From positions 1-64,000 of the forward strand of contig NZ_JQKJ01000002.1 of assembly GCF_000745975.1 (NCBI RefSeq): a stretch of DNA of 64,000 nucleotides. Direction: 5' to 3'. The translations under genes were made by a program, and so were the position numbers. This DNA comes from Desulfobacter vibrioformis DSM 8776. GTDB taxonomy: Bacteria > Desulfobacterota > Desulfobacteria > Desulfobacterales > Desulfobacteraceae. The notes beneath the pieces were generated by a model. That model ran no database searches, was not told the DNA's origin, and saw nothing but the letters and a program-made list of their open reading frames with translations. Within the stretch, counting starts at the first letter, position 1. Each line of letters opens with the position of its first letter. Shown here one piece after another: positions 20,913-55,150 of the stretch.

Positions 20913-21044
20913 GGAGTCTCCTTTTGTCAAAAAAAGGGGATGAATATTCATTATCAGCTTGGACTGTTTGTGTTTAACCTGTTATTTTATTCAATTGCAA
21001 TTAAATTTTTTGATTATGAAACCATCCCCAAAAAAGAGAAATCC

Positions 21045-22091: not shown

Positions 22092-22103
22092 AGGGGGGCG
22101 CCG

Positions 22104-37623: not shown

Positions 37624-37651
37624 AGGACAACCAGATGAAAGGAAACAGAAA

Positions 37652-37897
37652 ATGAAAAAAGAAGAAGTCGTGCAACTGCTCATGAAAAACCTGAAACTGG
37701 TCATCCCCGAATTCGAGGATGAGACCGTGGACACCTCCCTTTCCTACAAGGATCTGGGCGTCTCAAGCCTCGAACTCGTGGAGATCGTCGCTGTCACCAG
37801 CAAGGAGATGGGCGTGAAGCTCTCTCCCACAGCGCTGGCCTCGGTGAAGACGACCGAGGACCTGACGCAGGTGCTCATGGCGGCAAAGGCGAAGTAA
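37652..37897 (+). CDS. acyl carrier protein (first of two)
   Basis: An 81-residue ACP. The phosphopantetheine serine lies in YKDLGVSSLELVEIV; the usual DSL is SSL here, which still offers the serine before Leu. GGAAACAGAAA precedes the ATG at 37652; a longer in-frame start overlaps the ketosynthase. Helices and charges otherwise match the PP-binding family. It ends unit 1, and its 3' end overlaps the convergent GNAT-like gene by 23 bp. It probably carries the acyl unit used by the ketosynthase and ligase of this island. Confidence 0.9.
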   Translation: MKKEEVVQLLMKNLKLVIPEFEDETVDTSLSYKDLGVSSLELVEIVAVTSKEMGVKLSPTALASVKTTEDLTQVLMAAKAK

Positions 37898-40270: not shown

Positions 40271-40306
40271 GGATGATCCTTTCTTCACGAAATTCAAATC
40301 AAATGT

Positions 40307-41323
40307 TTAAGGTGCAGGTCGGGGCGTCACTGTTTCGGTCTCACGGATTTCAGCCCCGTTTTGCCGGAGCGCCGTAAGGAATTTTTCTGGATCAATGCAC
40401 CCCTCCGGTGCCACCAGGCCATGGGCCGGGATTTCCCCCGCCCCCATCATCCGGACTGCGATTGCGGCGGGAAGCCCCGTGCCCGCCCCCATTGCGCCCA
40501 CCATCTCTGCGGTGCAGGTGACCTGCGCCCCTTGTCGTTCCCCCTTGACAACCACCTTCAAGCCGGAAGCGGCAGGCCTGTCTGCGGGCAGAATCGTCCC
40601 CTTGACGACCACCGTTCGGAGTCCCGGGATATATCGCGGCAGGGTCAGGGGCTGGGGATGGCCGACAAAATGAAGCAGGCAGTTGCCCAGCGGTTCCGGA
40701 AACGCAACCCGCTCCTCCCCGGTGCCGCCTTCCACATATTCGAGCCGTCCATCCAGGAACTGGGGAATTTTGCCCTGGGTCATCCGGAAGCTGTGAGCCC
40801 AGGCAGCCGGGCCGGTGAGTTCGGCGATCCCAACAACCCAGTAGAGGGCAACCTCTGCCACGCGGTCGAGCCGGTCTGCATAGCTTTTGGCGATGAGATT
40901 GTTCGTGCCGGGATCAGAACCCATACCGGTGAGCACGGTGATCCCGGCTTCCCGGGCGGCCCGGTCCAGAGGGGAGGCGTAGAGGCGCGCGACCGTTTCA
41001 TGGTCGTCGCAGACATCAATATAATTGATCCTGGCCCCCACGCATGCCCGGACCACGGCCGGTGCGGTTGTCAGGAAGGGGCCCGCGCAGTTGACGACCA
41101 CATCGGCTTTGGCACCCGTCAGTATCCCTGTAAGGGTCTGAGCGTCGTTGGCATCAATTTTCACCATGGATATCTTTTGATTCTTACGAAGCCGGAGGCG
41201 CAATCCAGCAGGATCGGCATCCATGTCGCCCAGGATGACCTGCGAGATCTCCGCCTGCCTGATCAGCCCCAGGGCGACCTCCTGACCGATATTGCCCCTT
41301 CCGCCCACGATAAACACATTCAT
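40307..41323 (-). CDS. saccharopine-dehydrogenase-like NAD(P)-binding protein
   Basis: A 338-residue protein with an N-terminal Rossmann fold (MNVFIVGGRGNIGQEVALGLI), then VVVNCAGPFLTTAPAVVRAC and INYIDVCDDHE, typical of saccharopine dehydrogenase/reductase relatives. Its ATGA start overlaps the ligase stop; longer frames run into the ligase. Members oxidise or reduce imines between an amine and a keto acid, so this may join, cleave or epimerise an amino-acid adduct. Cofactor preference and substrate are open. Confidence 0.82.
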   Translation of the reverse strand: MNVFIVGGRGNIGQEVALGLIRQAEISQVILGDMDADPAGLRLRLRKNQKISMVKIDANDAQTLTGILTGAKADVVVNCAGPFLTTAPAVVRACVGARINYIDVCDDHETVARLYASPLDRAAREAGITVLTGMGSDPGTNNLIAKSYADRLDRVAEVALYWVVGIAELTGPAAWAHSFRMTQGKIPQFLDGRLEYVEGGTGEERVAFPEPLGNCLLHFVGHPQPLTLPRYIPGLRTVVVKGTILPADRPAASGLKVVVKGERQGAQVTCTAEMVGAMGAGTGLPAAIAVRMMGAGEIPAHGLVAPEGCIDPEKFLTALRQNGAEIRETETVTPRPAP

Positions 41324-42846
41324 GGATGTTTCCCGATGGTTGATGTATCGACCAGTGCCGACCGCTTGATCTTGCCGGTTTCTGTCCTGGGGATCATCTC
41401 CGTGAAGATGAATTGAGCGGGACACAGGTATGCAGGAAGCTGTTCGAGAATGAAGGAACGCATCCTCCGGGGCAGGCCTGTTTCACTCTCGTACCCAGGC
41501 TGGATCACCACAAAGGCCACCGGCTTTTGCAGCCCGTCCACCGAACGGGAGGTCACGGCGCATTCCCGGACAGCCGGGTGCTGGCCCAGGACCTGCTCGA
41601 TCCTGTGGGGCGAAACCCAGTTCCCGCCGCTCTTGAACAGGTCATCCCGGCGGCCCTGGTAGGCATAGCAGCCCTCCTCTTCGATAAATACATCCCCCGT
41701 GTCGAGCCAGCCGTCGGCGCGCATGGTCTCGGCTGTCTTCTCCGGCTGGTTCCAGTAAAAAGGCGCTGTGCTCTTTCCCCGAATCAGCAGCGAACCCGGA
41801 TGACCCGAGGGTTGAGGGAGTCCATCTTCGCCGATGATTCTGGCTTCGTATCCCGGCACCACAAATCCTGTCCTGCCGGGGAGCGTGAGACCGGGACGGT
41901 TGGAAATGAAAATATGCAGGGCCTCGGTGGAACCGATGCCGTCGAGAAGCGGCAGCCCGGTCAGGTGCTGCCATTGGTGGTAGAGCCCTTGGGGAAGGGC
42001 TTCGCCGGCGGAAACGCACAGTCTGACGGAGGCAAAGGCGGTTGCTTCATCCATGGTCTTGACCAGCATCTGATAAAGCGTTGGCACGGCGAAAAAAAGG
42101 GTCGGACGGCGCTCTGCCATCAATTGGAGGAGGTAGAAGATATCGGCGGGGCCGGAACTGCGGGGGTTTAAAACCGTTGAAGCGCCGAAATAGAGCGGAA
42201 AAATCAGGCTGTTGCCCAGGCCGTAGGCAAAATGGAGATTGCCGGCCGAGAGACAAATGTCGTCGGCGGACATTCCCAGGACCTGGCCGGCATACTGTTC
42301 GGCACAAAAAAGCATTTGGCCCTGGGAGTGGGGCACCCCCTTGGGTACGCCGGTGCTTCCGGAGCTGTAGAGAAGAAAATCAACGCCATCCGCCGATGGG
42401 GGTGAAGAGACAAGTGAGCCGCTCGCCTTTGCCCGCAGATCAGCATAATGGGGGTCATCAATACAGAGCGTAATCAGCCGGGAGCCGGCTCCCGCCTTGA
42501 GAGCCGCCGAAGCGCCGGTCGTGAACACAGCGGCAGGGGTGGCGTCGCGCAGGATGTACGCGTAGCTTTCCCGGGATAGGCCGGGGCTCAGGAGAACCGG
42601 GCAGACCCCGCATTTCATGGCGCCCAGAAATGCATAAAAGGCATCTGGGCAGTCGGGCAGGGCCAGAAGGAGCCGGTCCCCGGGACAAAGACCGAGCGAT
42701 TTAAGCATATTCCCGGAACGATTGACGTTTTCCTCCAGCAGGGCATAGGAAATCTGCTCGTTTTCAAAAAACAGGGCCGGATGCCTTCCCCGGGTTGCGG
42801 CGTGCTTTTGGAGAATATCGGCGTAGTCCGTAAAGGGGCGTGTCAT
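41320..42846 (-). CDS. benzoate-CoA-ligase-like AMP-forming ligase A
   Basis: A 508-residue adenylating enzyme. The phosphate loop is LLYSSGSTGVPKG, the aryl-pocket region has LHFAYGLGNSLIFPLYFG, motif A5 is GSTEALHIFIS, then GWLDTGDVF and the catalytic Lys in RTETGKIKR. Closest in style to the benzoate/4-hydroxybenzoate-CoA ligase class. It begins unit 2 from the ATG at 42846; a TTGAGT-17-TATGAT promoter lies upstream (42940-42968). Given the ACP genes, it could load aryl acids on ACP rather than CoA. Confidence 0.9.
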   Translation of the reverse strand: MTRPFTDYADILQKHAATRGRHPALFFENEQISYALLEENVNRSGNMLKSLGLCPGDRLLLALPDCPDAFYAFLGAMKCGVCPVLLSPGLSRESYAYILRDATPAAVFTTGASAALKAGAGSRLITLCIDDPHYADLRAKASGSLVSSPPSADGVDFLLYSSGSTGVPKGVPHSQGQMLFCAEQYAGQVLGMSADDICLSAGNLHFAYGLGNSLIFPLYFGASTVLNPRSSGPADIFYLLQLMAERRPTLFFAVPTLYQMLVKTMDEATAFASVRLCVSAGEALPQGLYHQWQHLTGLPLLDGIGSTEALHIFISNRPGLTLPGRTGFVVPGYEARIIGEDGLPQPSGHPGSLLIRGKSTAPFYWNQPEKTAETMRADGWLDTGDVFIEEEGCYAYQGRRDDLFKSGGNWVSPHRIEQVLGQHPAVRECAVTSRSVDGLQKPVAFVVIQPGYESETGLPRRMRSFILEQLPAYLCPAQFIFTEMIPRTETGKIKRSALVDTSTIGKHP

Positions 42847-43093
42847 GGAGGCTCTTTCGCAAAATAAAGCCTGTTGCAATACCTGACCACACCTTAACGT
42901 ATACAACGGGCAGTTAAATGATACTGAAGAAAGAAATTTATCATATCGACCCTGTACCATCAACTCAAAATTCAGATGGGTTTTGATGGCGGATCAGGGT
43001 GTCAGTCCTGTTCATTGACACGGAAAAGGTTTCGGGGTAGAGTCAAATCTTCCGGCAACTGCCGACCCCATGCTGACCCAATAAGGAATGTCC
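42847..43093. promoter_or_regulatory. divergent promoters of units 2 and 3
   Basis: On the minus strand TTGAGT (42963-42968), a 17-bp spacer and TATGAT (42940-42945) form a good sigma-70 promoter for the ligase unit. On the plus strand TTGACA (43015-43020), 17 bp and TAGAGT (43038-43043) precede the MFS gene. The leader 43041-43067 repeats the one before unit 1. Confidence 0.65.
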
Positions 43094-44308
43094 ATGCAAG
43101 CCAACACCCCAAACGATCAGGCCCTGCCGGAAAAGTTCTGGACCCGGAGCTTTACAGTGATCCTGGCCATCGCCTTCCTGACCTATGCCAACATCTCGGT
43201 CTTTTTCGAATTCTTTGCCTATCTTAAGACCTGCCCCATTGACCCGTCCTGGTTCGGCACGCTCATGGGGATCTTTGCCGGGGTATCGCTGTTGGTCCGG
43301 CCCCTGGTCATCCCCTTTTTCCAGCCCGGCAATGCCCGAAGTTTCCTGGTCCTCGGAACGGTGCTGGCCATCCTGGCCCTTGGATCCTACAGCCTGACCC
43401 GGAGCCTGCCGGGCCTGATGGGGGTGCGCATCTTTCACGGCCTGGCTTTTGTAGTCATGGGGGCGGCCCTCACGGCCCTGATGATGCCCCATGTGCCCAA
43501 GGGGGGATCTGCCCGGTTTTTCGGCATCATCTCCATCGTGGTCCTCATTCCCAACACCCTGGTGCCGCCGCTGCTTCCCTTTCTGACCCGGGTGCTGGGC
43601 GGGTTGCCCGGGGTGCTGCTGGGCTTTGCGGGCTTGAGCGCCCTGATCTTCCTTCTCCTGCCCCTGGTGCCGAAAAATGCAGCGGACGGACCCCGGCACA
43701 AGGACCAGCACCTGAAACTTTCCCGAAAAGAGATCATGGCAAACCTCACGGACCCGAAGGTGGTCCTTCTGCTTTTGGCCATGCTCTGTCTTTACTGCGG
43801 CCATGCCCTGGTTTTTTTCTTTTTGGACGGGTTCAGCCGGGAACTTGACATACCCAACGCCGGCCTGTTTTTAACCCTTTCCACTGTGGGAGAAATCGGG
43901 ATCCGCCTCTTTGCCGGCAAGGCCATGGACCGGGCCCCCAAGGACCGGCTGCTGATCCTGGTCCTGACCGGATTGGGACTGTCCTTCCTGCTGCTGGGCA
44001 GCCTTGCCTCCCTGCCCCAAGGGTTGCGCCTGCCGCTGTTTTATGCCCTGGGCGCTTTGGCAGGTCTGGGGTGGGGCGTGGCCATGCCCGTATTCAACGG
44101 ACTGATGTTCGATATTTCAAACCAGAGGCTCCAGAGTTTCAACACCAACCTGGGATTCCAGATGTTCCAGGCCGGTTTTTTCATAGGCCCATTTTTGGGC
44201 AGTGCCCTGGCCGGCGTTGCCGGATTCGGCCCGGTTTTTTACCTGGCCGCCCTGTTGAGCCTGGCAGGGGTTTTCATGGTGGGAATGTTTAAAAGGAGAA
44301 ATATATGA
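43094..44308 (+). CDS. major facilitator superfamily transporter
   Basis: A 404-residue integral membrane protein with about 12 hydrophobic helices (for example VILAIAFLTYANISVFFEFFAY and LGALAGLGWGVAMPVFNG). It has no lipobox or extra domains. The ATG at 43094 has AAGG 7 nt upstream; one 6 bp earlier is less well placed. It probably exports or imports the island's product; the class fits small-molecule drug/siderophore-type exporters. Its stop is overlapped by the start of the GNAT-like gene, so the two form one unit. Confidence 0.9.
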   Translation: MQANTPNDQALPEKFWTRSFTVILAIAFLTYANISVFFEFFAYLKTCPIDPSWFGTLMGIFAGVSLLVRPLVIPFFQPGNARSFLVLGTVLAILALGSYSLTRSLPGLMGVRIFHGLAFVVMGAALTALMMPHVPKGGSARFFGIISIVVLIPNTLVPPLLPFLTRVLGGLPGVLLGFAGLSALIFLLLPLVPKNAADGPRHKDQHLKLSRKEIMANLTDPKVVLLLLAMLCLYCGHALVFFFLDGFSRELDIPNAGLFLTLSTVGEIGIRLFAGKAMDRAPKDRLLILVLTGLGLSFLLLGSLASLPQGLRLPLFYALGALAGLGWGVAMPVFNGLMFDISNQRLQSFNTNLGFQMFQAGFFIGPFLGSALAGVAGFGPVFYLAALLSLAGVFMVGMFKRRNI

Positions 44309-45318
44309 CGATGAATGCTATCCCGGTGGAACCGGACCAGGAGTGGACCATCCACCGTTTCCGCCCCGAAGATGCCGTGGGCGTGACCGACCTTTTTCGT
44401 TCGGTTTACGGGGACAAGTACCCGGTGCGCACCTATCTTGAGCCTGAACTGCTGGCCAAAGAAAACCGGGAAGGCCGGGTGATCTCCTCGGTGGCGCGGA
44501 TCCCTTCCGGCGCCGTTGTGGGCCATAACGCACTGTTCAACTCCGCCCCCAACCCCAGAATATTTGAAAGCGGGTCCGGAGTGGTGCACAAATTTTACCG
44601 GGGAGGCCAGGGCATCTTCACCCAGATGGCGGCCCACGGGATTGAAATGGGCAAGGAGAACCCAGGCGTGGACCTGATCTACGGGGAACCGGTCTGTAAC
44701 CATCCCTTCACCCAGCAGCTATGCTACCGATTGAACTTTCCGACCCGGGCCATGGAGGTCAGCCTCATGCCTGCGGCTGCTTATGCCAAGGAGCAGAGCG
44801 CCAAGGGCAGGGTCTCAACCCTTTTGGGTTTTTTCACCCTCAAGCCCAGGCCCTGCAAGGTCTTTGTGCCCAAGGGACTGGAAGACCAGTTTTCCCGCTG
44901 TTACGAGGGGTTAGACGACACACGGACCTTTGAGGCTGCAAAAGAGGCGCCCGGCTCCCCGGAAAGCCGGATCCATACCCAGACCTTTGAGTTCGCCCAG
45001 GTGGCCCGGGTGGCAGTGCACGATACGGGTACCGATTTTCAGACCCGGATCACGGCTGAAGAAGAGCGGCTGATCTCCCAGGGTATCCGGGTGATCCAGG
45101 TCTGGCTCAACACAGGCCGCCCATGGGTGGGACAGGCCGTGAACCATCTTGCAGCCATGGGCTACTTTTTCGGCGGGGTGCTGCCCCAGTGGTTCGGTAC
45201 CGACGGCATGCTCATGCAAAAGGTCCTGGATGAACCGGACTGGGAGGGGACAGTCCTGGTGGGCGAATGGAACAAGCAGGTGGCAGGCCTGGTGCGCCGG
45301 GAATGGGAGAAAAGATAA
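44305..45318 (+). CDS. GNAT-like acyltransferase paralog B
   Basis: A 337-residue protein with WTIHRFRPEDAVGVTDLFRSVYG, SVARIPSGAVVGHNALF and the same DLIYGEPVCNH block as the other paralogs. It ends GYFFGGVLPQWFGTDGMLMQKVL. Start at 44305 (ATGA overlap with the MFS stop, AAAAGGAGAAAT upstream). Its pairing with an exporter suggests it modifies the transported molecule or protects the cell from it. Coenzyme A and acceptor specificity are not readable from sequence. A 25-bp piece of its 3' part is copied at 52876-52900. Confidence 0.82.
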   Translation: MTMNAIPVEPDQEWTIHRFRPEDAVGVTDLFRSVYGDKYPVRTYLEPELLAKENREGRVISSVARIPSGAVVGHNALFNSAPNPRIFESGSGVVHKFYRGGQGIFTQMAAHGIEMGKENPGVDLIYGEPVCNHPFTQQLCYRLNFPTRAMEVSLMPAAAYAKEQSAKGRVSTLLGFFTLKPRPCKVFVPKGLEDQFSRCYEGLDDTRTFEAAKEAPGSPESRIHTQTFEFAQVARVAVHDTGTDFQTRITAEEERLISQGIRVIQVWLNTGRPWVGQAVNHLAAMGYFFGGVLPQWFGTDGMLMQKVLDEPDWEGTVLVGEWNKQVAGLVRREWEKR

Positions 45319-45325
45319 GCCCGGG

Positions 45326-46144
45326 CTATCGGGATCCGACCTGTTTTTTCAGACTGCCCAGCCTGGTGCCACCCCAGAGCGCGGCCCCGATGGCACCGGC
45401 AAAGGGACTTGTTTCGTGGGTTTTCAATGAAAGCCCAAGGCCCGAGGCTGAAAGGGCCTGGGACAGGGCGTGGATAAAGCCCTGGTCCGCGGCCAGGCCG
45501 CCTGTAACGGCCAGCGGGGGGATAAGGCCTGCGGTGGAGAGCAGCTTCACGGCCCGTTGGGCCATGGCGTCGTGGATGCCCCGGACAATGTCTGCCATGG
45601 GAACCCCCCTTGACACCTGGTTGATGATGTCTGTTTCCGCCAGGACCGCGCATACCGCGGACAGGGGGCTTGGATCCTCTGAGGCAAGGGAGAGGGCCTG
45701 CATCTCCTCAAAGCCAAGGCCCAGGTACTGGCCCACGTTTTCTAAGAACCTTCCCATGCCCGAGGCGCATTGGCTGGTCATCTTGTAGGAGAGGATCTTC
45801 CCCCGGGGATCCAGCACCATGGCCCGCATGTGAAGGGCGCCGATATCCAGAACGCTCATGGCTTCGGGGGAGAAATGCCGGGCCCCCCGGGCGTGGCAGG
45901 TCATGGCGAAGAAGGTGCCGGTACGGGCGGTGACGGCTGTCACGTCCCCCGTAGCGGCGATGTAAGAAAAGCCATCCAGGGGGAAGCCGGCCCGGGCTGC
46001 CGCGTCAAAGCAGCGGTTCACCGCCGTTTCCGGGGCTTTTTTCCGCAGGGTTTCACGACAGCAGAACAGCAGATCGTGACTCTCCTCGGCCATGACCGCG
46101 AGTTTAACTGCACCTGTTCCCACATCGCATCCGCAAAGGCTCAT
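45326..46144 (-). CDS. bcrD: class I benzoyl-CoA reductase subunit D-like protein
   Basis: A 272-residue ASKHA ATPase of the BcrA/BcrD/BadG type. Seen: GCDVGTGAVKLAVM, VLDIGALHMRAMVL, and the cluster Cys in KMTSQCASGMGRFLENV and CAVLAETDIINQVSRG. The GALH in place of GGQD and the AVLAETD block, as I remember the family, mark true benzoyl-CoA reductase subunit D rather than the 2-hydroxyglutaryl-CoA dehydratase activator. The ATGA start overlaps bcrA. It couples ATP hydrolysis to low-potential electron transfer. No ferredoxin donor gene is inside the island. Confidence 0.88.
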   Translation of the reverse strand: MSLCGCDVGTGAVKLAVMAEESHDLLFCCRETLRKKAPETAVNRCFDAAARAGFPLDGFSYIAATGDVTAVTARTGTFFAMTCHARGARHFSPEAMSVLDIGALHMRAMVLDPRGKILSYKMTSQCASGMGRFLENVGQYLGLGFEEMQALSLASEDPSPLSAVCAVLAETDIINQVSRGVPMADIVRGIHDAMAQRAVKLLSTAGLIPPLAVTGGLAADQGFIHALSQALSASGLGLSLKTHETSPFAGAIGAALWGGTRLGSLKKQVGSR

Positions 46145-47382
46145 AATGTCTCCAGGGCGTACAGCGCGGCGCCCAGGGCGCCGGTATAGACGGCATCCGG
46201 GTGAATATGAAGCGTAAGATCCGCATGGTCTTTAGCCAGGTATTCTTTCAGGGTTCTGACCACGGCCTGATTTTGGGCCACACCTCCGGTAAAAACCAGG
46301 GCGTCAAAGATCCCCCCGGACCGGGCCAGAAGAGAGAGCGCACGAAGAACCACGGCCCGGTGAAGCCCTAAAAGCACCTCCTCCTGCTTTTCACCGGCAT
46401 ACAGCAGGCTTCTCACTTCCGTTCCGGCAAAGACCGTGCAGGTGGAGGTCACGGGGACTGCGCGGCAGGCCGTGCAGGCTAAAGGCCCCAGGTCGGTGAG
46501 GCCGATCCCCAGCTCCTCGGCCACGTATCCCAGGTACCTGCCGCAGCCGGCCGCACACCGGTCATTCATGAAGAAGGAGGCCACAAGTCCGTTTTCATCC
46601 AACTGGATGGCCTTGGTGTCCTGTCCCCCGATGTCCAGGACGGTCCGGGCGTCCGGGAACAGGTAACGGGCCCCTTTGCCGTGGCACAGGATTTCCGACC
46701 GGATTTCCGTTTCCGGAAAGGGCAGGAGGGCGCGGCCGTAACCGGTCCCGATCTGGCCGGCGATCCTGGGCCTTATTGCCGCAAGTTTCGGGATCAGGGG
46801 CCGTACAGCCGGCGGCAGGTCCGTGGCGGCAGTCTCGTCCAAAGCCTTTGAGAACACGGTGTTTTCCGTGGCGGCCAGGGCCTTGGCAAGCCCTGTGGCC
46901 AGCGTTTCCTCGTCCAGGCTGCCCCTGAGGCGGGCCGCATCCAGGTAAAGAGCGAGGGCGATGTCCCTGAAAAAAAGGCTCCGGTCCATGATCTGATCCA
47001 AGACCCGGCTGTGGGCTCCGTTAGAGGCATCACCGGCATCCAGGGCCTTGTCCACGTCCCGGGCCAGGTCAGCAAGGCCGGGGGCGGCCGTCCGGTCCAT
47101 GACACGGCAAAGGGCCTGGTGAAGGATTTGGAGCCTTCGGCGGAAGCCGGCCAGGCGCAGGCGCCTTTCAGTAAGGGTCAGGGTTTCGGTGGAAAGACGG
47201 CCGAGGCTGCCCAGCAGCGCAAGGTCTGCATCCAGGATAGCCTCCCTTGCCGCGATGTCCGCGGAAACCCGGTAATCGGCCCGGGTGTTGGTAATGCCCC
47301 GGCCCAAAACTTTGCCCTCTTTGCTCAGCAGCACCGCCTTGCAGGTGGTGCTGCCCAGGTCAATGCCCAGGGTTGCGATCAT
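46141..47382 (-). CDS. bcrA: class I benzoyl-CoA reductase subunit A-like ATPase
   Basis: A 413-residue ASKHA ATPase. Seen: LGIDLGSTTCKAVLL at the N-terminus, VLDIGGQDTKAIQLD near residue 240, the [4Fe-4S] cysteines in NDRCAAGCGRYL and STCTVFAGTE, and FTGGVAQN near the C-terminus. Together with subunit D it would hydrolyse two ATP per electron pair in the Thauera-type enzyme. It overlaps the subunit B gene by 23 bp and bcrD by ATGA, so the operon is translationally coupled. Slightly shorter than typical BcrA. Confidence 0.9.
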   Translation of the reverse strand: MIATLGIDLGSTTCKAVLLSKEGKVLGRGITNTRADYRVSADIAAREAILDADLALLGSLGRLSTETLTLTERRLRLAGFRRRLQILHQALCRVMDRTAAPGLADLARDVDKALDAGDASNGAHSRVLDQIMDRSLFFRDIALALYLDAARLRGSLDEETLATGLAKALAATENTVFSKALDETAATDLPPAVRPLIPKLAAIRPRIAGQIGTGYGRALLPFPETEIRSEILCHGKGARYLFPDARTVLDIGGQDTKAIQLDENGLVASFFMNDRCAAGCGRYLGYVAEELGIGLTDLGPLACTACRAVPVTSTCTVFAGTEVRSLLYAGEKQEEVLLGLHRAVVLRALSLLARSGGIFDALVFTGGVAQNQAVVRTLKEYLAKDHADLTLHIHPDAVYTGALGAALYALETL

Positions 47383-48652
47383 GGTACGCCCTTCTTTCGT
47401 CGATCATCTGGAAATAGGCATCCAGCCGGTTTTTGATATGGGCCCTCGAAAAATACTGGGGATCCACCAGGTCCGATTCAATGAAACCGCAGGGTTTTGC
47501 CGTCCTCTTTTCCACTTCTTTCAGGATCAAAAGCTGGCCCGCGCCAAAGGAGTTACAGCTCTTGACGGAGTGGACCACAAGTCCGTCCGCCTTGTAATCT
47601 TCCATGAACCGGGTCAGCAGATCCACCCGGGCCGGGACACTCAGGTTGGTGTAGCAGCCCATGCAGTACCGGGCAAAGCTTTCCAAGGGATGGTCCGGGT
47701 CGTGCCGGAAACCGTTGTCGTAAATGCCTCCTACCCGGACGTAGGAACCGGCCACCACCACCGCGCCCCTGCGGTAAAACAGTTTCCACAACTCCCAGAA
47801 ATGGGTCCAGTTGGGAGGGCCCTCCACCACGATGCGGTAGCGTTCTTCCGGCAAATCCCCTTCCAGGGTAAAGGCGGTACGGTTTTCCCGGATCCGTTTT
47901 TCGATCTCTTCCAACAGGAGCCGGTAGTATTTGACGGCCTCCAAGGTCCCCCGAAAGGCGGTGAATATGGGGAACATGTAGAACACCCCGCCAAAGTAGC
48001 TGTCAATGGGGGAGGGAACGTGTTGTGCGCTTTCCAGGCAGCGGACGAACAGGGATTCGGACTGGGCCGCAAGCGCGCACATGGCCCGGATTTTTTCCGG
48101 GTCGTAGGGCCTGCCCGAGACCCGGGCCATGGCCGGGATGATCTCCTCTTCCAGTTGCCGCACCACGTACCGGGTCATGGCCGGGGTAACACCACCCTCG
48201 GCCTGGTAGGGCACGTGAAGCAGCGCGATGGGGCAGTCGTACAGGGCAGCAAGGTTTTCGAACCACTTCATGAAGGTGAAGCAGCCGGTGTAGGAGAGCA
48301 GCAAAAGGTCCGGCGGCGGCAGGGGCTTTCCGGCCGGGCCCGTGTTGCCCAGGAGCATCATGCCGATGTCGCACTTCACATAGGAGCAGACATCTTCGGA
48401 GTGCCCGGCCATTTCAGCCCGTTTGACAAAATTACCCGAATCTCCCCGGAGTGCCGACTGCAGGGCGTTGACCTCAGGATAGACCGGCAGCAGGTCAAAG
48501 GAGAGGATCAGTTCCGTAAGGTTCCCGGGCACAAAGGTGTAGACCACTTTCTGACCCCGGTCCCGGGCCGAAGCCAGCCGGTCGAAGTAGTCGTCCAGAA
48601 TCTGCTTTTGGAAGTGTTTGGCAGAAGGGGATTTCATGGGAATGCTGTCCAT
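47360..48652 (-). CDS. bcrB: class I benzoyl-CoA reductase subunit B-like protein
   Basis: A 430-residue protein of the HgdB/BcrB family. Conserved cysteines lie in VCSYVKCDIGMM, LSYTGCFTFMKWFENL, YCMGCYTNLS and SVKSCNSFGAGQ, suited to a [4Fe-4S] cluster shared with the substrate site. The length is close to BcrB/BadE (about 436). The start at 48652 (MDSIPMKS) follows the BcrC-like stop by 1 bp. In the known enzyme B and C form the ring-reducing module. Order C-B-A-D here equals that of the Thauera operon. Confidence 0.9.
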   Translation of the reverse strand: MDSIPMKSPSAKHFQKQILDDYFDRLASARDRGQKVVYTFVPGNLTELILSFDLLPVYPEVNALQSALRGDSGNFVKRAEMAGHSEDVCSYVKCDIGMMLLGNTGPAGKPLPPPDLLLLSYTGCFTFMKWFENLAALYDCPIALLHVPYQAEGGVTPAMTRYVVRQLEEEIIPAMARVSGRPYDPEKIRAMCALAAQSESLFVRCLESAQHVPSPIDSYFGGVFYMFPIFTAFRGTLEAVKYYRLLLEEIEKRIRENRTAFTLEGDLPEERYRIVVEGPPNWTHFWELWKLFYRRGAVVVAGSYVRVGGIYDNGFRHDPDHPLESFARYCMGCYTNLSVPARVDLLTRFMEDYKADGLVVHSVKSCNSFGAGQLLILKEVEKRTAKPCGFIESDLVDPQYFSRAHIKNRLDAYFQMIDERRAYHDRNPGH

Positions 48653-48653
48653 G

Positions 48654-49811
48654 TCAGGACTCCTTGGGCCACAGACGGATGCTGTCGCTGAAGGTTCCGG
48701 CGACCTCGGCAATGCCGCTGTACTGGCAGGTGTTCTCTGCGTATTTGAAGCTGGCACTGGGAATGCCGTGGGTTTCCAGGGCCTCCCGGAGCAAGGTCCG
48801 GTCCAGCAGGGACGGGTCACAAAAGGAGGGGGCCGCGAAGATCACGCCGTCGGCCCGGTGCTCCCGGACCAGGGCCAGGAACGTTTCCGCCTTTTCCCGG
48901 GGGCCGCAGTACTTAAAGGGGGCCGGGCCGGACCGGTTCAGGTAGCCGTCCACAAGGCTTTCAAAGGGATCGCCCGTTTCCTTCAGGGGGGCGGTGAACC
49001 AGTGCAGCCCGAGCAACAGGTCATGGCTCACGATATAGCATCCCGAGGCTTCGATGGTCTTGAGAAGGCCGATTGTGGGCTGTTCGCAGAAAGCCCCGGC
49101 CAGGTGGACCCGGATGTGGTCCAGGGGTCGGCTGTCCCTTTTTTCGGCAAGGGCGAGATAGGCGGCAAGCATGGGGATATGCGCTTCGGGATGGAGGACC
49201 AGGGCGCTGCGCAGCAGGGTGTACCATTCATCCATAGGCACCTTCCAGGGAAATTTTGACCTCAGGCCGGCCAACCGCCTGAAGAGGTCTGTCTGCCGGT
49301 TGGTCAGGGCGATGGCCTGGGCCAGCCTTTGGCTGTAGGCCGCGTCAGGGGGGTGGCCCAGGATACGGGTGGCCAGGTCGATGAGGGTCTCGTGAAAGAA
49401 CCGTCCCCCGGTTTCCGAAGAGAAGTTCTGGGGCAGGTCCAGATATGCAGCCCACTGGTGGGGGAACAGGATCTGCCACATGCCGGAAAGGTTGCGCATC
49501 ACATCGCAGATGGACGGGAAGATCACGCCGGAAAACGCCCCCAGGGCAGGGGCTGTTTCAAGAACGCTCCGGGGCAGGCGGCAGATATAGGACTGGTAAT
49601 AGATGTCTCCCCGAATGATTTCCACCTGGGGGCCTGCGCCCCAGAGCCCCACCGCCAGTCCCCCTGCGGCGTACACCAGTTCCCGGGGGGCGTAGGCCGG
49701 CAGATAGCCCACCACTGGCGCGCCGGGGTGGCGGGCCTGCCAGTGGGCGACTTCGGTGAATTCAGGGTCTTCCCACAGGGCTTTGAGGCGGTCAAAATCG
49801 GGCAGCGTCAT
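48654..49811 (-). CDS. bcrC: class I benzoyl-CoA reductase subunit C-like protein
   Basis: A 385-residue protein of the HgdB/BcrC family, the same length as BcrC/BadD. Cysteines that may ligate a cluster lie in SYICRLPRSVLE, FPSICDVMRNLSGMW, GAFCEQPTIGLL and PSFCDPSLLDR. It lies 15 bp after the GNAT-like gene and directly before bcrB. Class I reductases break aromaticity of benzoyl-CoA with ATP; here the adjacent ACP, ligase and GNAT genes raise the possibility of an ACP-bound or non-benzoyl substrate. Confidence 0.9.
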   Translation of the reverse strand: MTLPDFDRLKALWEDPEFTEVAHWQARHPGAPVVGYLPAYAPRELVYAAGGLAVGLWGAGPQVEIIRGDIYYQSYICRLPRSVLETAPALGAFSGVIFPSICDVMRNLSGMWQILFPHQWAAYLDLPQNFSSETGGRFFHETLIDLATRILGHPPDAAYSQRLAQAIALTNRQTDLFRRLAGLRSKFPWKVPMDEWYTLLRSALVLHPEAHIPMLAAYLALAEKRDSRPLDHIRVHLAGAFCEQPTIGLLKTIEASGCYIVSHDLLLGLHWFTAPLKETGDPFESLVDGYLNRSGPAPFKYCGPREKAETFLALVREHRADGVIFAAPSFCDPSLLDRTLLREALETHGIPSASFKYAENTCQYSGIAEVAGTFSDSIRLWPKES

Positions 49812-49826
49812 GGGGGGCTCTTTTTT

Positions 49827-50909
49827 TTAGGTTTCCGGGGCAGCCCGGCCGGCACAGTTCCGGGCATCCGCCGCCACCATCTCCCCGATGGTCTTGGCTT
49901 TCTTGGAATGGAGGCGGATGGTGCTGAAATCGGGCAGTTTCAAGAGCTTTTGCATGAGGATACCGTCTGTATCGAACCAGCGGGGGACCAGACCGCCGAA
50001 GAAATATCCCCGCTCCCTGAGTATCTGGACCGCAGTAGTGCCGGAAGGGTCGGACAGGTTGACGAAAACCTGACGCACGGCCGCGTTCCTGGATTCCATA
50101 TCCGCCTCAAACGCCGAAAGACGGGCGGGAAAATCCGTCCCCAGTGCGACGAGGTTGATCCGGCCCACCCCGGCAAATTCGATGAAAACGGTGTCCATGA
50201 CAGTGGCCGTCCCCCGGCGGGGGGCTGTCCTCCCTTCCGGGCCCAGGGTCAGATCCATCCCAAGATCCGCCAGGATGAACGCGGCCTGTTCCCGGTAGGC
50301 ATCGGGAATGAAGATTTCCCGGGGCCGGTCCTTCCATGACCTGAAGAACATGATGCAGGAAATGCGGTCCGCTGACTCGTTTTCCTTTATATATACCTCC
50401 CGGGGCATGAGGCCCATTTCCAGGGCCGTTTCGGACAGGCCAGCCAGGCGTGTGGATTTCTGGGTGATGATATGGTTGCAGACCGCCTCTCCGAAAATGC
50501 CGTCAGGACAGACCTGCCGGAGAAGTTCGCCAGCCACGTACTCGTTGATCCGGAAGGCGGCAAAGGTGGTCCTGTATTCTTTCAGGACAAGATACTGGCC
50601 GATTTCCAGAAGGTTGTTGTAATGGGGTGCGCTTTTGTACATGGCCCCGTGGGCCACGATGTCCCCTTTGGGGGTCCTGGCCACAACGGAATGGATGTCG
50701 CCGCAACGGTTGGCCTCAATGAGTTTTTCGGGGATATAGTAGGTGTCAAAGGGATATGCCGGCCCGTATACGGCAAGATACAGGGACGCGATTCCCGGTG
50801 CGTCCTCCGCACGAAACCGGTCGATGACAAAGGTCTGTTCCGGGTCCACGGATAGTTTTCTTTCAACCCTCATACTAAGATTTTGCCCCTTGGGGCCGGC
50901 ATATTCCAT
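49827..50909 (-). CDS. GNAT-like acyltransferase paralog C
   Basis: A 360-residue protein with FVIDRFRAEDAPGIASLYLAVYG, SVVARTPKGDIVAHGAMY, GIFGEAVCNH and the terminal GYFFGGLVPRWFDTDGILMQKL, the same series of blocks as paralogs A and B. GCGAGG precedes the ATG at 50909; a later in-frame start (50873) is possible. It lies between an ACP gene and bcrC, suggesting that it acts on the acyl group carried by that ACP. Function beyond GNAT-fold membership is not established. Confidence 0.8.
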   Translation of the reverse strand: MEYAGPKGQNLSMRVERKLSVDPEQTFVIDRFRAEDAPGIASLYLAVYGPAYPFDTYYIPEKLIEANRCGDIHSVVARTPKGDIVAHGAMYKSAPHYNNLLEIGQYLVLKEYRTTFAAFRINEYVAGELLRQVCPDGIFGEAVCNHIITQKSTRLAGLSETALEMGLMPREVYIKENESADRISCIMFFRSWKDRPREIFIPDAYREQAAFILADLGMDLTLGPEGRTAPRRGTATVMDTVFIEFAGVGRINLVALGTDFPARLSAFEADMESRNAAVRQVFVNLSDPSGTTAVQILRERGYFFGGLVPRWFDTDGILMQKLLKLPDFSTIRLHSKKAKTIGEMVAADARNCAGRAAPET

Positions 50910-50932
50910 GGGTGTTTGCCTCGCTTTCAGGT

Positions 50933-51172
50933 TTAGCTCAGTTTCTGATTAACAAAGGCAACAAAGTCGTTGACGGTTTTAAGTTTGGTGGCCTGGGCGT
51001 CGGACAGGTTGACGCCGAACTTCTTTTCCGTGGCCACGGCGATCACAGGCATGTCGATGGAATCAAGGCCCTGCTGCAGCAGGGGGACGTCGGCTTTCAA
51101 CTTGGCCACGACTTCCTGGTCTTCGATGCTCTCTTTGATGACGGCAAGAATGCCTTCTGCGGTAACTTTCAC
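50933..51172 (-). CDS. acyl carrier protein (second of two)
   Basis: A 79-residue ACP with the standard phosphopantetheine site LLQQGLDSIDMPVIAV. The real start is a GTG at 51172, with AAGGAGA 7 nt before it; longer frames upstream run into non-coding sequence. It lies 23 bp before the GNAT-like gene and 55 bp after the ligase, in the same operon as the class I BCR-like genes. A carrier protein inside a benzoyl-CoA reductase operon is unusual and suggests protein-tethered substrate. Confidence 0.9.
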   Translation of the reverse strand: MKVTAEGILAVIKESIEDQEVVAKLKADVPLLQQGLDSIDMPVIAVATEKKFGVNLSDAQATKLKTVNDFVAFVNQKLS

Positions 51173-51227
51173 GGGTTGTCTCCTTATTAAATGGGGGTAT
51201 TGGGGGTTAAAAACAAGAACCACGGCG

Positions 51228-52736
51228 TCAGTCTTTCTTTAGCCGGAATCTTTGAACTTTACCGGTTTCGGTCTTGGGCAGGCCCTGGACAAAGTCGATC
51301 TGTACCGGGCACATATAGGCCGGAAGGTTTGCCAGGACATGGCGGCGGAGCGTCCCGACGAGTTTGGGATTTCCCTCGAAGCCCGGCCTGAGCACCACCA
51401 GGGCCAGGGGTTTGGCCAGGCCTTCCAGCCTGCGGTGGGACACGGCGCACTCCAGCACCGCTGGATGCTCCCGAAGGACCGCTTCCACCCGGATGGGAGA
51501 GACCCAGTTGGCGTCCACCTTGAACATGTCGTCCCCCCGGCCCTGGAAGACGAAGGCCCCTTCCGTCCCCGGGGTTTGGATGTAAACATCCCCGGTGTCC
51601 AGCCACCCCTCTTCCCTCATGGTTTCCCGGGTTTTTTCGGGGCGGTTCCAGTAATGGGGGGCGGTGGCATCACCCCTGATCCAGAGGCGTCCCAGGGTGC
51701 CGGGGGGCACGGCGCGGCCGTTCTCGTCGACCACCTTGGTCTCCCAACCCGGGACAGGGGTGCCGGAGGTCCCGGGCCGCACCTGGCCCGCCCGGTTGGA
51801 CAGGAAGATATGCAAGGCTTCGGTGGACCCGATGCCGTCCAGAATCTCCACGCCGGTAAGTCGTTTCCAGTCATGAAAGAGATCGGCGGGAAGAGCCTCT
51901 CCCGCGGAGACACAGAGCCGTAAGGCGCCTGTATCCAGGGATTCGGTCTCCATGGTTTTCAACAGCATGTTGTAAATGGTGGGGACGGCGAAAAAAAGCG
52001 TGGGCCGGTATTGCCCGATCATATTCAAAATGTCAGGGGGAGTCGGGGGATCGGGATTCAGGATGACAGATGCGCCGGCCCTCAGGGGAAAGGAGAGGCT
52101 GTTCCCCAGGCCAAAGGCAAAAAAGAGTTTGGCTACGGAAAAGAAGCGGTCGGTTTCGGTGGCATCCAGCACCTGCCGGGCATAGGTGTCTGCGGTTGCG
52201 ACCATATCCCTGTGGCGGTGGGGCACGCCCTTTGGGTTGCCGGTACTGCCGGAACTGTACAGCATGAAAGCGATGTCCGTTTCCCGGGAGGGATGGGGGG
52301 CAAGCTCCGGGGAAGCCTGGGTGATCCCTGCGGCATATTCCGGGGTGTCCACGTAAAATCGATGCCGGAGCGTGCTGCCGGAAGCCTGGGCCGCGCTGCA
52401 GTCGGTACGGGTGACCAGGGCAACGGCCCCGGCATCCTGGACGATGAAGTCGTATCCGGTCCTGGAAAGGGCCGGGCTGAGGGGCACAGGCCAGGCCCCG
52501 TGCCGGATGCTGCCCAGAAAGGCATAGAAAAAGGCCGGCGAGTCGGGCAAGGCAATGATGAGACGTTCCCCGGGACGTACGCCGGTCTGGGCGAGCAGCT
52601 TGCCGAACCGGTTGATCCCCTCCTGAAGAGCGCCGTAGGAAATTTTTTCGTTCCTGTAATAAATGGCTGTTTTATCGGGGTTTTTTGAGACGTTCGGGTC
52701 AACGAGTTCGGACGCTGCATTCAGGATACCGTTCAT
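51228..52736 (-). CDS. benzoate-CoA-ligase-like AMP-forming ligase B
   Basis: A 502-residue adenylating enzyme, clearly paralogous to ligase A (41320-42846). Seen: the phosphate loop LYSSGSTGNPKGVPH, AKLFFAFGLGNSLSFPL, GSTEALHIFLS, GWLDTGDVY and the catalytic Lys in KTETGKVQRFRL. It begins unit 4, ahead of the ACP, GNAT-like gene and bcrCBAD. The two ligases suggest two acyl substrates or a spare copy. Benzoate or a substituted benzoate is the obvious candidate acid, but specificity cannot be read here. Confidence 0.9.
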   Translation of the reverse strand: MNGILNAASELVDPNVSKNPDKTAIYYRNEKISYGALQEGINRFGKLLAQTGVRPGERLIIALPDSPAFFYAFLGSIRHGAWPVPLSPALSRTGYDFIVQDAGAVALVTRTDCSAAQASGSTLRHRFYVDTPEYAAGITQASPELAPHPSRETDIAFMLYSSGSTGNPKGVPHRHRDMVATADTYARQVLDATETDRFFSVAKLFFAFGLGNSLSFPLRAGASVILNPDPPTPPDILNMIGQYRPTLFFAVPTIYNMLLKTMETESLDTGALRLCVSAGEALPADLFHDWKRLTGVEILDGIGSTEALHIFLSNRAGQVRPGTSGTPVPGWETKVVDENGRAVPPGTLGRLWIRGDATAPHYWNRPEKTRETMREEGWLDTGDVYIQTPGTEGAFVFQGRGDDMFKVDANWVSPIRVEAVLREHPAVLECAVSHRRLEGLAKPLALVVLRPGFEGNPKLVGTLRRHVLANLPAYMCPVQIDFVQGLPKTETGKVQRFRLKKD

Positions 52737-53298: not shown

Positions 53299-53661
53299 TT
53301 AAGTGATATTTTGGGGTTGTTTATTATAACCCTTTTCACCATATGGCTTCAGTTTTTCTGTCCATAGCTCCTCAAGACATTTGAGATCTTCGGCAGGATC
53401 ATAATTCGGATCATCCAATGGCTCGAGAATTTCAAGTTCTTCAAATATAAACGCCTCATGTCCAAATTCCTTCCATTCTTTTTGTAAAACAACATTGCGG
53501 CAGCTACCCAACTTCAACTCAGATTTAAAGCGATTAAGTCTTGCTGTTAAATTAAGACTCGAGCCTATAAGAACTTTACCGTTAACCTTGTTTATGATCC
53601 GGAAGACACCCATTGGACGCGGAGTATTTTTGTATCCCCTTATTTTGGTTTTTCTATCCAT
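53299..53661 (-). CDS. GIY-YIG nuclease-domain protein
   Basis: A 120-residue protein whose core GVFRIINKVNGKVLIGSSLNLTARLNRFKSE matches the GIY-YIG fold, with GVFRI and VLIGS in the GIY and YIG positions; residues usual for catalysis (Arg in RLNRF, later Glu) are present. The ATG at 53661 has AAAGGA at proper spacing; longer starts are less likely. Such small proteins are often homing-type or mobile-element-linked nucleases. It sits alone in the scar zone. Confidence 0.8.
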   Translation of the reverse strand: MDRKTKIRGYKNTPRPMGVFRIINKVNGKVLIGSSLNLTARLNRFKSELKLGSCRNVVLQKEWKEFGHEAFIFEELEILEPLDDPNYDPAEDLKCLEELWTEKLKPYGEKGYNKQPQNIT

Positions 53662-53756
53662 TTTCATTCCTTTGGTAATGAAGTCATTTGGGGTGTCTAA
53701 CTTTTCGAATTTAGTTTGCTCATAATTTGTACCCCAATTCAAATTTTTATTTAAAA

Positions 53757-53811
53757 CCATGAAGAGCATGAAGATTGATTTTCAAGTATATATTCTTCAT
53801 GTCCTTCATGG
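53757..53811 (-). terminator. inverted repeat, likely methyltransferase terminator
   Basis: The arms 53757-53774 and 53794-53811 pair at 16 of 18 positions around a 19-nt loop. On the minus strand a TTTTAAAT run follows. It lies downstream of the methyltransferase gene and before the GIY-YIG gene. Confidence 0.5.
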
Positions 53812-53954
53812 TAAAATAAAATACTCAATGCTTAAGTTTATGACATTGAAGTAGAAGTTACTCATTTTGATTGAATCTGAAGAAGTCCTTTTTAAATTCA
53901 ACTTCATTGGAGCTTAATCGTATCTTTAAAATGCGATTGCCCTGAAGACCTGGG

Positions 53955-54527
53955 TCATGACCGTTGGCATTTCACATGAGATTTGGTTTCCCGGATAATT
54001 TTTAAGCACCTGGATTGTTTAATTTTCTGAATCGTCTGGGTTCTGGGTTGATGCCCATCTTCAATAATTATTGTTCCGTCTTTTTTAACCAGTCTGCTCA
54101 ATTCCTTTAAAAATAGATTCGTGTTCTCCACCATGTGAAACATGTCCAGAGCGTAAACGATATCAGCAGTTTCATCACTTATGGGTGTTCTATTGTTTTC
54201 TGCGAGAACAGCTTCAACGTTGGTCAGCGAAAGTTTTTTAATTTTTTCTTTTACTTTGGCAATGGCAAGGGGGTGAATGTCCACTGCAATAACTTTGCCC
54301 GTTTTACCCACCGCGCCGGATGCAAATCCAATGTACCTGGCCGGCCCGCAGCCATAATCAATAACCGTCTGACCGGATTTCAACCCCAGGGTTTTAAAAT
54401 TTTTCTGTGAATGGCGGCCCAATACATCCATCAGTTTCATGACCAATGTCATTGCCTTGAAACCAAGGTTTGAAAGTGATTCTCTATTCTTGCCTGAAAA
54501 AAAATCGCCTGGTTTTTCAGTTTTCAT
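53955..54527 (-). CDS. class I SAM-dependent methyltransferase
   Basis: A 190-residue methyltransferase. Motif I is VIDYGCGPARYIGFASG, the acidic residue after beta-2 lies in VIAVDIHPLAIAKVKEK, and later IVYALDMFHMVEN gives motif IV-like sequence. This matches the UbiE/Methyltransf_25 group. The ATG at 54527 follows GAGGG by 5 nt. The substrate is unknown; it is outside the GC-rich island and its base composition matches the flank, so it is probably unrelated to the island pathway. Confidence 0.85.
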   Translation of the reverse strand: MKTEKPGDFFSGKNRESLSNLGFKAMTLVMKLMDVLGRHSQKNFKTLGLKSGQTVIDYGCGPARYIGFASGAVGKTGKVIAVDIHPLAIAKVKEKIKKLSLTNVEAVLAENNRTPISDETADIVYALDMFHMVENTNLFLKELSRLVKKDGTIIIEDGHQPRTQTIQKIKQSRCLKIIRETKSHVKCQRS

Positions 54528-54599
54528 TGTAGCCCTCACATTTTCTAAGATTATAAAAATTATATGCTTTGGAAAAAGTACCTTTTTTCGCGTAAGATA

Positions 54600-55150
54600 T
54601 CAATCCGGTTGCGGCAAAATTGTTTTTCCGCCCAGATGAATAATCCGGGAGCACACCCGGGAGGTGCTGTCCCGGTCATGGGAAATAAAGAGAAGCGCCA
54701 TATTGAAATCTTTCTGAATGGATGTCAGATGGGCCATGATATCAGCCTGCAACGGCAGATCCAGACCACAAAGCACTTCATCGCAGATCAGCAGTTCCGG
54801 TGAAACTGACAACGCCCGGGCAATGGCAGCCCGCTGGCACTGCCCGCCGGAGAGCATTCCCGGCCGGTACCGGCCCAGGTCCGGGTCAAGGCCCATGGCC
54901 TGCATCAGCGCATCAGCCCGGTCCCGGCGCTCCCGCGCCGTGCCAATGCCAAAGGCGGCCATGGGTTCAACGATTGACGTACGAACCGATAAAAAAGGGT
55001 TCAGGTAGACAAAGGGGTCCTGCCAGACCATCTGGACCCTGCTAAAAAACTTGCGGTTGGGCCGCGTCTTTGCATCGCATACAAGTCGCCCCTTCCAGAA
55101 AACCTGCCCGGCATCCGGTGCTTCAACCCCCAGGATAATTCGTGAAACTC
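54600..55150 (-). pseudogene. 5'-truncated peptide/nickel-type ABC transporter ATPase
   Basis: The C-terminal part of an OppF/DppF-like ATPase. Seen: VQMVWQDPFVYLNPF (Q-loop), MLSGGQCQRAAIARAL (signature), LLICDEVLCGLD (Walker B) and LLFISHDRDSTSR (H-loop). Homology continues upstream through GVEAPDAGQVFWKGRL, then stops at the joint with a TonB-receptor fragment near 55130-55150. Walker A is missing, so it cannot be a working ATPase. It is divergent from the intact ATPases at 59261-60912. Confidence 0.8.

Follow-up and report, generated by a model that had tools for sequence, protein, structure and literature searches.

A class I benzoyl-CoA reductase-type operon with its own acyl carrier protein in a putative biosynthetic island of Desulfobacter vibrioformis

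We analysed a stretch of 64,000 nucleotides from Desulfobacter vibrioformis DSM 8776 (contig NZ_JQKJ01000002.1, positions 1 to 64,000; hereafter the window) and identified on its minus strand, from 52736 to 45326, one compact operon that combines genes for a putative class I benzoyl-CoA reductase (BCR) with genes for a ligase, an acyl carrier protein (ACP) and an acyltransferase-like protein. All seven genes are co-directional, in the order lig1, ACP1, GN3, bcrC, bcrB, bcrA and bcrD:

51228 to 52736, minus strand: lig1, first gene of the operon, benzoate-CoA-ligase-family AMP-forming ligase, 502 amino acids (Pfam AMP-binding; TIGR02262, 454.3 bits against a cut-off of 375.25)
50933 to 51172, minus strand: ACP1, acyl carrier protein, 79 amino acids, with a GLDSID phosphopantetheine site (PP-binding, PF00550, 7.3e-08)
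49827 to 50909, minus strand: GN3, acyltransferase-like protein, 360 amino acids, read as two GNAT halves (AlphaFold2 pLDDT 91.5; GNAT folds in the PDB over about half of the chain)
48654 to 49811, minus strand: bcrC-like subunit, 385 amino acids (Pfam HGD-D; TIGR02263, 372.4 bits, below the cut-off of 421.15)
47360 to 48652, minus strand: bcrB-like subunit, 430 amino acids (Pfam HGD-D; TIGR02260, 599.5 bits, above the cut-off of 486.55)
46141 to 47382, minus strand: bcrA-like ATPase subunit, 413 amino acids (Pfam BcrAD_BadFG; TIGR02259, 343.8 bits, below the cut-off of 578)
45326 to 46144, minus strand: bcrD-like ATPase subunit, 272 amino acids (Pfam BcrAD_BadFG; TIGR02261, 246 bits, below the cut-off of 312.85)

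The genes are separated by 55 (lig1/ACP1), 23 (ACP1/GN3), 15 (GN3/bcrC) and 1 (bcrC/bcrB) bases and overlap by 23 bases (bcrB/bcrA) and 4 bases (bcrA/bcrD), and the reading frames of all four bcr genes are intact. The probable start of ACP1 is the GTG at 51172, preceded by a GGAG, rather than that at 51223. A scan of the operon found one promoter-like site against 2.3 expected, which is no excess, and 12 terminator-like sites against 9.7 expected, which is no clear excess. The original prediction, made from the letters of the window, had described a bcrC-B-A-D-like operon here, and the genes were found on the minus strand where it had placed them, as were the DSI site of ACP1 and the GALH and AVLAETD blocks of subunit D. 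Its ligase call was confirmed by the TIGR02262 score of lig1; its GNAT-like call was supported by predicted GNAT folds over about half of GN3, but not by a Pfam match.

The closest solved relatives of lig1 are benzoate- and anthranilate-CoA ligases, and the protein carries FFAFGLGN and STEALHIFLSN where benzoate-CoA ligases have FFAYGLGN and STEMLHIFLSN. The tyrosine of the FFAYGLGN motif presumably lines the ring pocket. With a TIGR02262 score over the cut-off and a near-identical aryl-pocket motif, lig1 belongs to the benzoate-CoA ligase family, a membership that, as read from sequence, does not distinguish CoA from ACP as the acceptor. GN3 has no match in Pfam or NCBIfam; the PDB matches of its model are mostly single GNAT domains, each covering about half of the protein, and we read it as a tandem GNAT.

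Benzoyl-CoA reductase models of NCBIfam are the best match for all four Bcr subunits, which lie in the C-B-A-D order of a class I BCR; BcrB is over its equivalog cut-off, and BcrA, BcrC and BcrD are under theirs. For comparison, nine A, C and D subunits were taken from three reference loci; eight of them are over these cut-offs, and the BcrA of L047 is under. Cysteines were compared in an alignment of 86 loci (80 plus six fetched), with rows for A, B, C and D from 79, 86, 82 and 76 loci, respectively; some rows are over-long or have doubtful frames, and L198 and L199 were excluded from the conservation counts. Columns conserved at 95% or more include 4 (A), 5 (B), 5 (C) and 2 (D) cysteines, all retained in the window, and a stricter alignment, its rows filtered by length and chosen by a best-subunit rule (57, 62, 52 and 52 rows), recovered the same cysteines. 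In a 40-row tree, which held only six activase rows, one of them from a BCR-like locus, the A subunit fell in the BcrA clade and the D subunit in the BcrD clade, with an SH-aLRT of 100 each. Because the conserved cysteines are kept and A and D are placed in these clades, the reductase is, judged by its sequence, a class I BCR in origin that evolves rapidly. By analogy with the family, whose enzymes use ATP to reduce benzoyl-CoA to the 1,5-diene, its putative activity would be the ATP-dependent reduction of an aryl thioester.

The subunits might instead belong to a 2-hydroxyacyl-CoA dehydratase of the HgdABC or HadIBC type, with which they have the Pfam families PF01869 and PF06050 in common. 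We regard this identity as extremely improbable and dropped it, since each of the four subunits scores higher with BCR models than with dehydratase or activase models, and A and D are separate subunits that each fall in a BCR clade at 100. The arrangement expected of a dehydratase, a single CoA_E_activ-type activase with dehydratase-type B and C subunits, is not what the operon contains. A grouping of A and D with dehydratase activators, which the original prediction had named as fatal to its reading, was not seen.

Among known systems, Thauera/bcr-type class I BCRs (BcrCBAD, BadDEFG) share with the window enzyme the gene order, the four subunits, the A/D ATPase pair, the B/C HGD-D pair and the conserved cysteines. 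The window differs from them in its A, C and D subunits below cut-off, its long branch, its co-operonic ACP and GN3, and the lack in the genome of over-cut-off matches to Dch, Had and Oah, which follow BCR in the degradation of benzoyl-CoA. The Azoarcus-type BzdNOPQ and MbdONQP (PDB 9g87, 8s02) belong to the same superfamily, and among solved structures MbdO matches BcrB best; however, bcr-type models give the window proteins far higher scores than bzd-type models do. Class II BCR catalyses the same overall chemistry but differs in being ATP-independent (PMC5109826), in its tungsten cofactor (PMC4148979) and in its subunits. PMC5109826 assigns class I BCR to facultative and class II to obligate anaerobes, and gives Desulfococcus multivorans a class II enzyme and no bcrABCD. 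On the other hand, in two further papers, Desulfotomaculum gibsoniae has class I BzdNOPQ alongside class II (PMC4148979), and class I-like genes are described in naphthalene-degrading sulfate reducers (PMC12016498). The statement in the original prediction that aromatic-degrading sulfate reducers are usually reported to use class II is thus right in that class I is unusual there, but class I is not unknown. An ATP-dependent tetrahydronaphthoyl-CoA reductase is likewise linked to class I-like genes in sulfate-reducing cultures; it is catabolic and acts on CoA, and the available part of its source mentions no ACP or GNAT link (PMC12016498). The new point is therefore the biosynthetic setting, not class I in sulfate reducers as such. 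A search of titles and abstract openings found no biosynthetic BCR; no paper was found on the core gene set of the island described below, and none by title on the CoA-binding residues of a class I structure.

The divergence of the reductase was assessed in the stricter rows, in which the median identity of the window to the other loci, against that of the others among themselves, is 44.4 against 52.2 (A), 58.2 against 67.8 (B), 42.6 against 48.7 (C) and 42.8 against 52.7 (D); the first alignment had likewise placed the window lower. The window has the longest end branch both in a 72-row FastTree (1.21 against a median of 0.26) and in a stricter 27-row FastTree (1.07 against 0.28), and with so long a branch we are unsure of its exact position. 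These branches, together with a base composition pointing to a foreign origin of the island, would also fit a horizontally acquired passenger under relaxed selection that no longer works as a reductase. The four intact frames, the retained cysteines and genes that overlap or nearly touch argue against such decay, which we think very unlikely.

Relatives were sought in a GTDB scan with BcrB, which gave at least 569 confirmed relatives; only the best 80 were kept and examined, and all statements on GTDB loci below refer to these. They are 57-64% identical and mostly carry titles of Planctomycetota, Acidobacteria, Bacteroidetes or Myxococcales groups. No close relative of bcrC was found in 86 genomes of the family, where every other match is at most 33% identical. 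At E 1e-60, bcrB was found in 8 of 395 phylum genomes (best other 59%) and in 8 of 389 class genomes (best other 39%), the own genome included each time; the family, phylum and class samples overlap, and their counts are kept separate. The host genome has no second bcr-type BcrB, its sole other match being partial and 28% identical. Hidden Markov models built from the window families detected an ACP-like or GN-like open reading frame (ORF) in none of the 80 GTDB loci; the ACP model does recover L174, L176, L182, L212 and L178, and a distant ACP could escape it. Among the GTDB loci with Bacteroidota titles (L035, L042, L047, L050, L079, L090, L100 and others), 17 of 20 are without Oah or Dch in the stretch; many have a second BcrB-like or BcrA-like match and some a ligase-like or molybdenum (Mo)-hydroxylase match. 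In the 72-row tree, 16 Bacteroidota rows cluster with a single Armatimonadota row at a support of 100.

We then considered the degradation pathway. The host carries dsrA over the cut-off (601.2 bits) and is thus of the sulfite/sulfate-reducer type. Throughout its genome, the best matches to Oah (TIGR03200; 88.9 bits against a cut-off of 464.45), Dch (TIGR03189; 90.1 against 292.5) and Had (TIGR03201; 27.5 against 338.65) all fall below cut-off, and neither an Oah nor a Dch query protein (one of each) matched the window in tblastn at E 0.01, in agreement with the original prediction, which had noted no degradation genes nearby. On these grounds a degradation operon was rejected. In four genomes of the same phylum with a 59% identical BcrB, the enzymes are over cut-off in 4/4 (Oah), 3/4 (Dch) and 3/4 (Had) cases. 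The original prediction had also held that degradation genes beside the locus in relatives would overturn its reading; none is over cut-off in the host genome, but no relative carrying the same operon was found in the samples searched.

An ordinary catabolic or co-metabolic BCR that merely adjoins a biosynthetic cluster is nevertheless conceivable, given the canonical bcrC-B-A-D order, two benzoate-CoA-ligase-family genes nearby (lig1, and lig2 listed below) and other BCR-like genomes that are also without over-cut-off Oah, Dch and Had. We consider it unlikely, since the three enzymes are below cut-off throughout the host genome, the BCR genes share an operon with ACP1 and GN3, beginning 15 bases after GN3, and the reductase is very divergent.

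The operon is the terminal part of a larger cluster whose other end lies at about 30.2 kb, outside the coordinates of the original prediction, and which occupies a GC-rich island of about 22.5 kb (30.2-52.7 kb). In 2-kb steps, the GC content is 0.58-0.65 across 30-52 kb and 0.45-0.54 elsewhere in the window, and third-position GC is mostly parallel. Because of this contrast with the surrounding DNA, the island has probably been acquired horizontally. Its other genes are:

44305 to 45318, plus strand: GN2, second GN-family protein, convergent with bcrD (38% identical to GN3)
43088 to 44308, plus strand: MFS transporter, possibly an exporter by prediction (PF07690, 4.4e-30)
41320 to 42846, minus strand: lig2, second benzoate-CoA-ligase-family enzyme (TIGR02262, 395.1 bits, over cut-off; syntenic in L257, 65%)
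40307 to 41323, minus strand: saccharopine-dehydrogenase-like protein (PF03435, 5.5e-15; 57% in L257)
38966 to 40297, minus strand: class III (GSA-like) aminotransferase (PF00202, 9.6e-41; 77% in L257)
37875 to 38975, minus strand: GN1, third GN-family protein (40% identical to GN3; 69% in L257)
37616 to 37897, plus strand: ACP2, second acyl carrier protein (PF00550, 1.4e-07)
36376 to 37623, plus strand: FabF/PksF-like ketosynthase (KS), whose true start may be slightly upstream (PF02801, 1e-32; Cys and His motifs align with L257 and L178)
32663 to 36322, plus strand: xanthine-dehydrogenase-like Mo hydroxylase of three subunits, at 32663-34996, 34993-35466 and 35459-36322 (PF02738, PF20256, PF01799, PF00941)
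31521 to 32666, plus strand: HisC-like pyridoxal-phosphate-dependent aminotransferase (TIGR01141, 278.2 bits against a cut-off of 276.55)
30233 to 31534, plus strand: RsbW-like ATPase domain fused to GNAT-like domain(s), at the left end of the island (AlphaFold2 pLDDT 88.3; RsbW/SpoIIAB and GNAT matches in the PDB)

GN1, GN2 and GN3 form one protein family. GN3 matches at E 0.001 occur in 17 of 86 family genomes and 69 of 395 sampled phylum genomes, and those with a best E of 1e-40 or below in 10 and 49, respectively, own included; many of the weak matches are ORFs of about 500 amino acids with 20-28% identity, which are perhaps another architecture. We read 31 GN places, a selection of stronger and some spread matches in stretches of 3.6 to 35 kb. 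By tblastn, these include a HisC-like gene in 19, an MFS gene in 18, a large Mo subunit in 13 and the lig1-ACP1-GN3 module in four (L174, L176, L182 and L212), and none has a bcr gene. At E 1e-110, lig1 was found in 22 of 291 order genomes including its own, at 27 places. Eight of the 24 places outside the host and G380 were fetched: L256, a stretch of just 4.9 kb in which little is readable past GN3, and L258 have lig1-ACP1-GN3, L257 has the KS block and five have neither. In L257 (G678), KS, ACP2, GN1, aminotransferase, dehydrogenase and lig2 lie in the order seen in the window, at 57-77% identity. All six module loci conserve the ACP site, DS followed by I, M or V and a D, and FFAYGLGN is present in four of the six module relatives of lig1, the remaining two retaining the tyrosine. 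In L178, the neighbours of a GN1 relative comprise a KS and an ACP, a phosphopantetheinyl-transferase-family protein, a FabA/FabZ-like protein and a polyketide synthase fragment with methyltransferase and ketoreductase domains. GN proteins thus occur in biosynthetic clusters.

Based on these analyses, we propose as a fairly probable explanation that a cluster for small-molecule biosynthesis has recruited a class I BCR-type enzyme, which would dearomatise an aryl thioester before N-acylation, whichever carrier holds the thioester. The island supplies biosynthetic neighbours, namely the KS, ACP2, two aminotransferases, the ligases and the MFS protein. Since the lig1-ACP1-GN3 module persists without BCR, the simplest scheme is one in which ACP1 receives an aryl acid from lig1 and GN3 transfers the acyl group to an amine; the BCR, seen added downstream of the module only here, would reduce the ring before transfer. 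In more explicit terms, lig1 would activate a benzoate-type acid with ATP and load ACP1, as the conserved module suggests. By family chemistry, BcrAD would hydrolyse ATP and drive ferredoxin electrons into BcrBC, which would reduce the aryl thioester to a cyclohexadiene-carbonyl thioester. GN3 could then pass the reduced acyl group to an amine from the cluster core, as its GNAT fold and the aminotransferases suggest, and the MFS protein may export the product. The scheme is consistent with a ligase, an ACP and an acyltransferase preceding bcrC in one operon and with no hydratase, dehydrogenase or hydrolase over cut-off. GNAT-fold N-acyl synthases that move an acyl group from ACP to an amine are known as FeeM and the LuxI family; GN3, read as a tandem GNAT, is likened to them by fold and role, not by sequence.

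Several observations weigh against this proposal. The combination of BCR, ACP and GN occurs in a single genome, which is a draft assembly of 86 contigs with a completeness of 95.38%, and none of the island genes has a known product. The lig1-ACP1-GN3 module occurs in the six other loci without a BCR in the stretches read; therefore the presence of the ACP is not due to the BCR. The long branch could reflect relaxed constraint, BcrB is still above the benzoyl-CoA reductase cut-off, and the class I enzymes described in the available part of PMC12016498 act on CoA thioesters. Three further genomes of the phylum, G120 (BcrB 43%), G283 (37%) and G284 (33%), likewise lack any Oah, Dch or Had match over cut-off, though G283 has two strong partial Had matches. 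Oah (>250 bits) or Dch (>150 bits) is present in the stretch in 51 of the 80 GTDB loci and neither in 29, of which 17 have Bacteroidota-group titles, six of these being full 21-kb stretches. Because such full stretches are also without Oah or Dch, the absence of degradation genes beside the operon is weak evidence alone, and the whole-genome test is stronger.

Recruitment into biosynthesis leaves a choice of carrier. On one account, an ATP-driven Birch-type reductase would act on an ACP-tethered aryl group: lig1 loads ACP1, BcrCBAD dearomatises the ring while it is bound there, and the resulting cyclohexadienoyl group is passed to an amine by a GNAT-fold enzyme. Alternatively, lig1 or lig2 would make the aryl-CoA, BCR would reduce it at the CoA level, and the dienoyl group would pass to ACP1 or to GN3 directly. 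This second account overlaps the biosynthetic proposal itself, and the two are alternatives to each other; from the sequence evidence, we hold aryl reduction on the ACP to be a tentative possibility of somewhat less than even chance, and reduction on CoA to be one of a similar order. GNAT enzymes commonly use acyl-CoA. The family chemistry on CoA (PMC12016498, as far as available) and the well-kept BcrB, over its curated cut-off, favour CoA, as do the aryl-CoA ligases that are the nearest solved relatives of lig1. The ACP is favoured by its place in the same operon and by the lack of any gene there recognised by Pfam or NCBIfam as a CoA:ACP acyltransferase. In addition, the ACP adjoins the ligase, and because this position is kept in the six BCR-less loci, in the stretches read, it suggests that the ligase loads the ACP directly. 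The original prediction of a biosynthetic, ACP-bound reaction is thus supported in its biosynthetic part by the island, the A and D clades and the lack of over-cut-off Oah, Dch and Had, but for the ACP-bound substrate it is plausible only.

The dearomatisation of a benzene ring is among the hardest reductions in biology and, to our knowledge, ring dearomatisation with low-potential electrons is known only from degradation. If the biosynthetic proposal is true, anaerobes could build reduced-ring molecules from benzoate-type acids, and the small operon could serve for probing whether such a reductase reads a carrier protein instead of CoA. It would also highlight the cluster group marked by GN (the 49 of 395 phylum genomes noted above).

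The Mo hydroxylase was considered as a 4-hydroxybenzoyl-CoA reductase feeding the BCR. Xanthine and glyceraldehyde dehydrogenase models score higher than TIGR03193, TIGR03194 and TIGR03195 for all three subunits, the enzyme co-occurs with core genes in BCR-less loci, and this role was rejected. Among solved chains, the 4-hydroxybenzoyl-CoA reductase alpha subunit comes second, behind nicotinate dehydrogenase. Upstream of the island, in lower-GC DNA at 20841-23826, we noted by eye XdhC-like, MobA-like/HD-domain and phosphatase-like ORFs that are perhaps maturation genes for a Mo hydroxylase.

Other observations concern the core clusters and the same genome. L180, L181, L210 and L211 are core-cluster loci whose stretches gave no match to the Mo hydroxylase. 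In them, the HisC-like gene adjoins an adenosine-deaminase-like gene, its family checked for L211 only; because of this adjacency, there is a hint that the core product contains a purine-like or other N-heterocycle. Near the core clusters of L185, L189, L191 and L212, STAS, PP2C and RsbW-type partner-switching-like proteins were seen by eye, and the first gene of the island is likewise RsbW-like plus GNAT. Elsewhere in the host genome (G000:C4:212001-222328; L200:2-10329), an ORF recognised by eye as a large nonribosomal peptide synthetase precedes three further genes, which encode a weakly matching double-cubane/HadB-like protein, a CoA_E_activ activase (253.5 bits against a cut-off of 125.4) and a double-cubane/HadC-like protein that scores below cut-off. 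This arrangement suggests that another ATP-driven enzyme, a reductase or a dehydratase, is linked to peptide synthesis. Just past the right end of the island, 53299-55031 contains a GIY-YIG-like ORF, a short ORF that resembles a methyltransferase and part of a peptide ABC transporter ATPase (by eye), possibly a scar left by insertion. Finally, positions 1-221 of the window carry the beginning of a minus-strand 16S rRNA gene that is truncated at the edge of the window.

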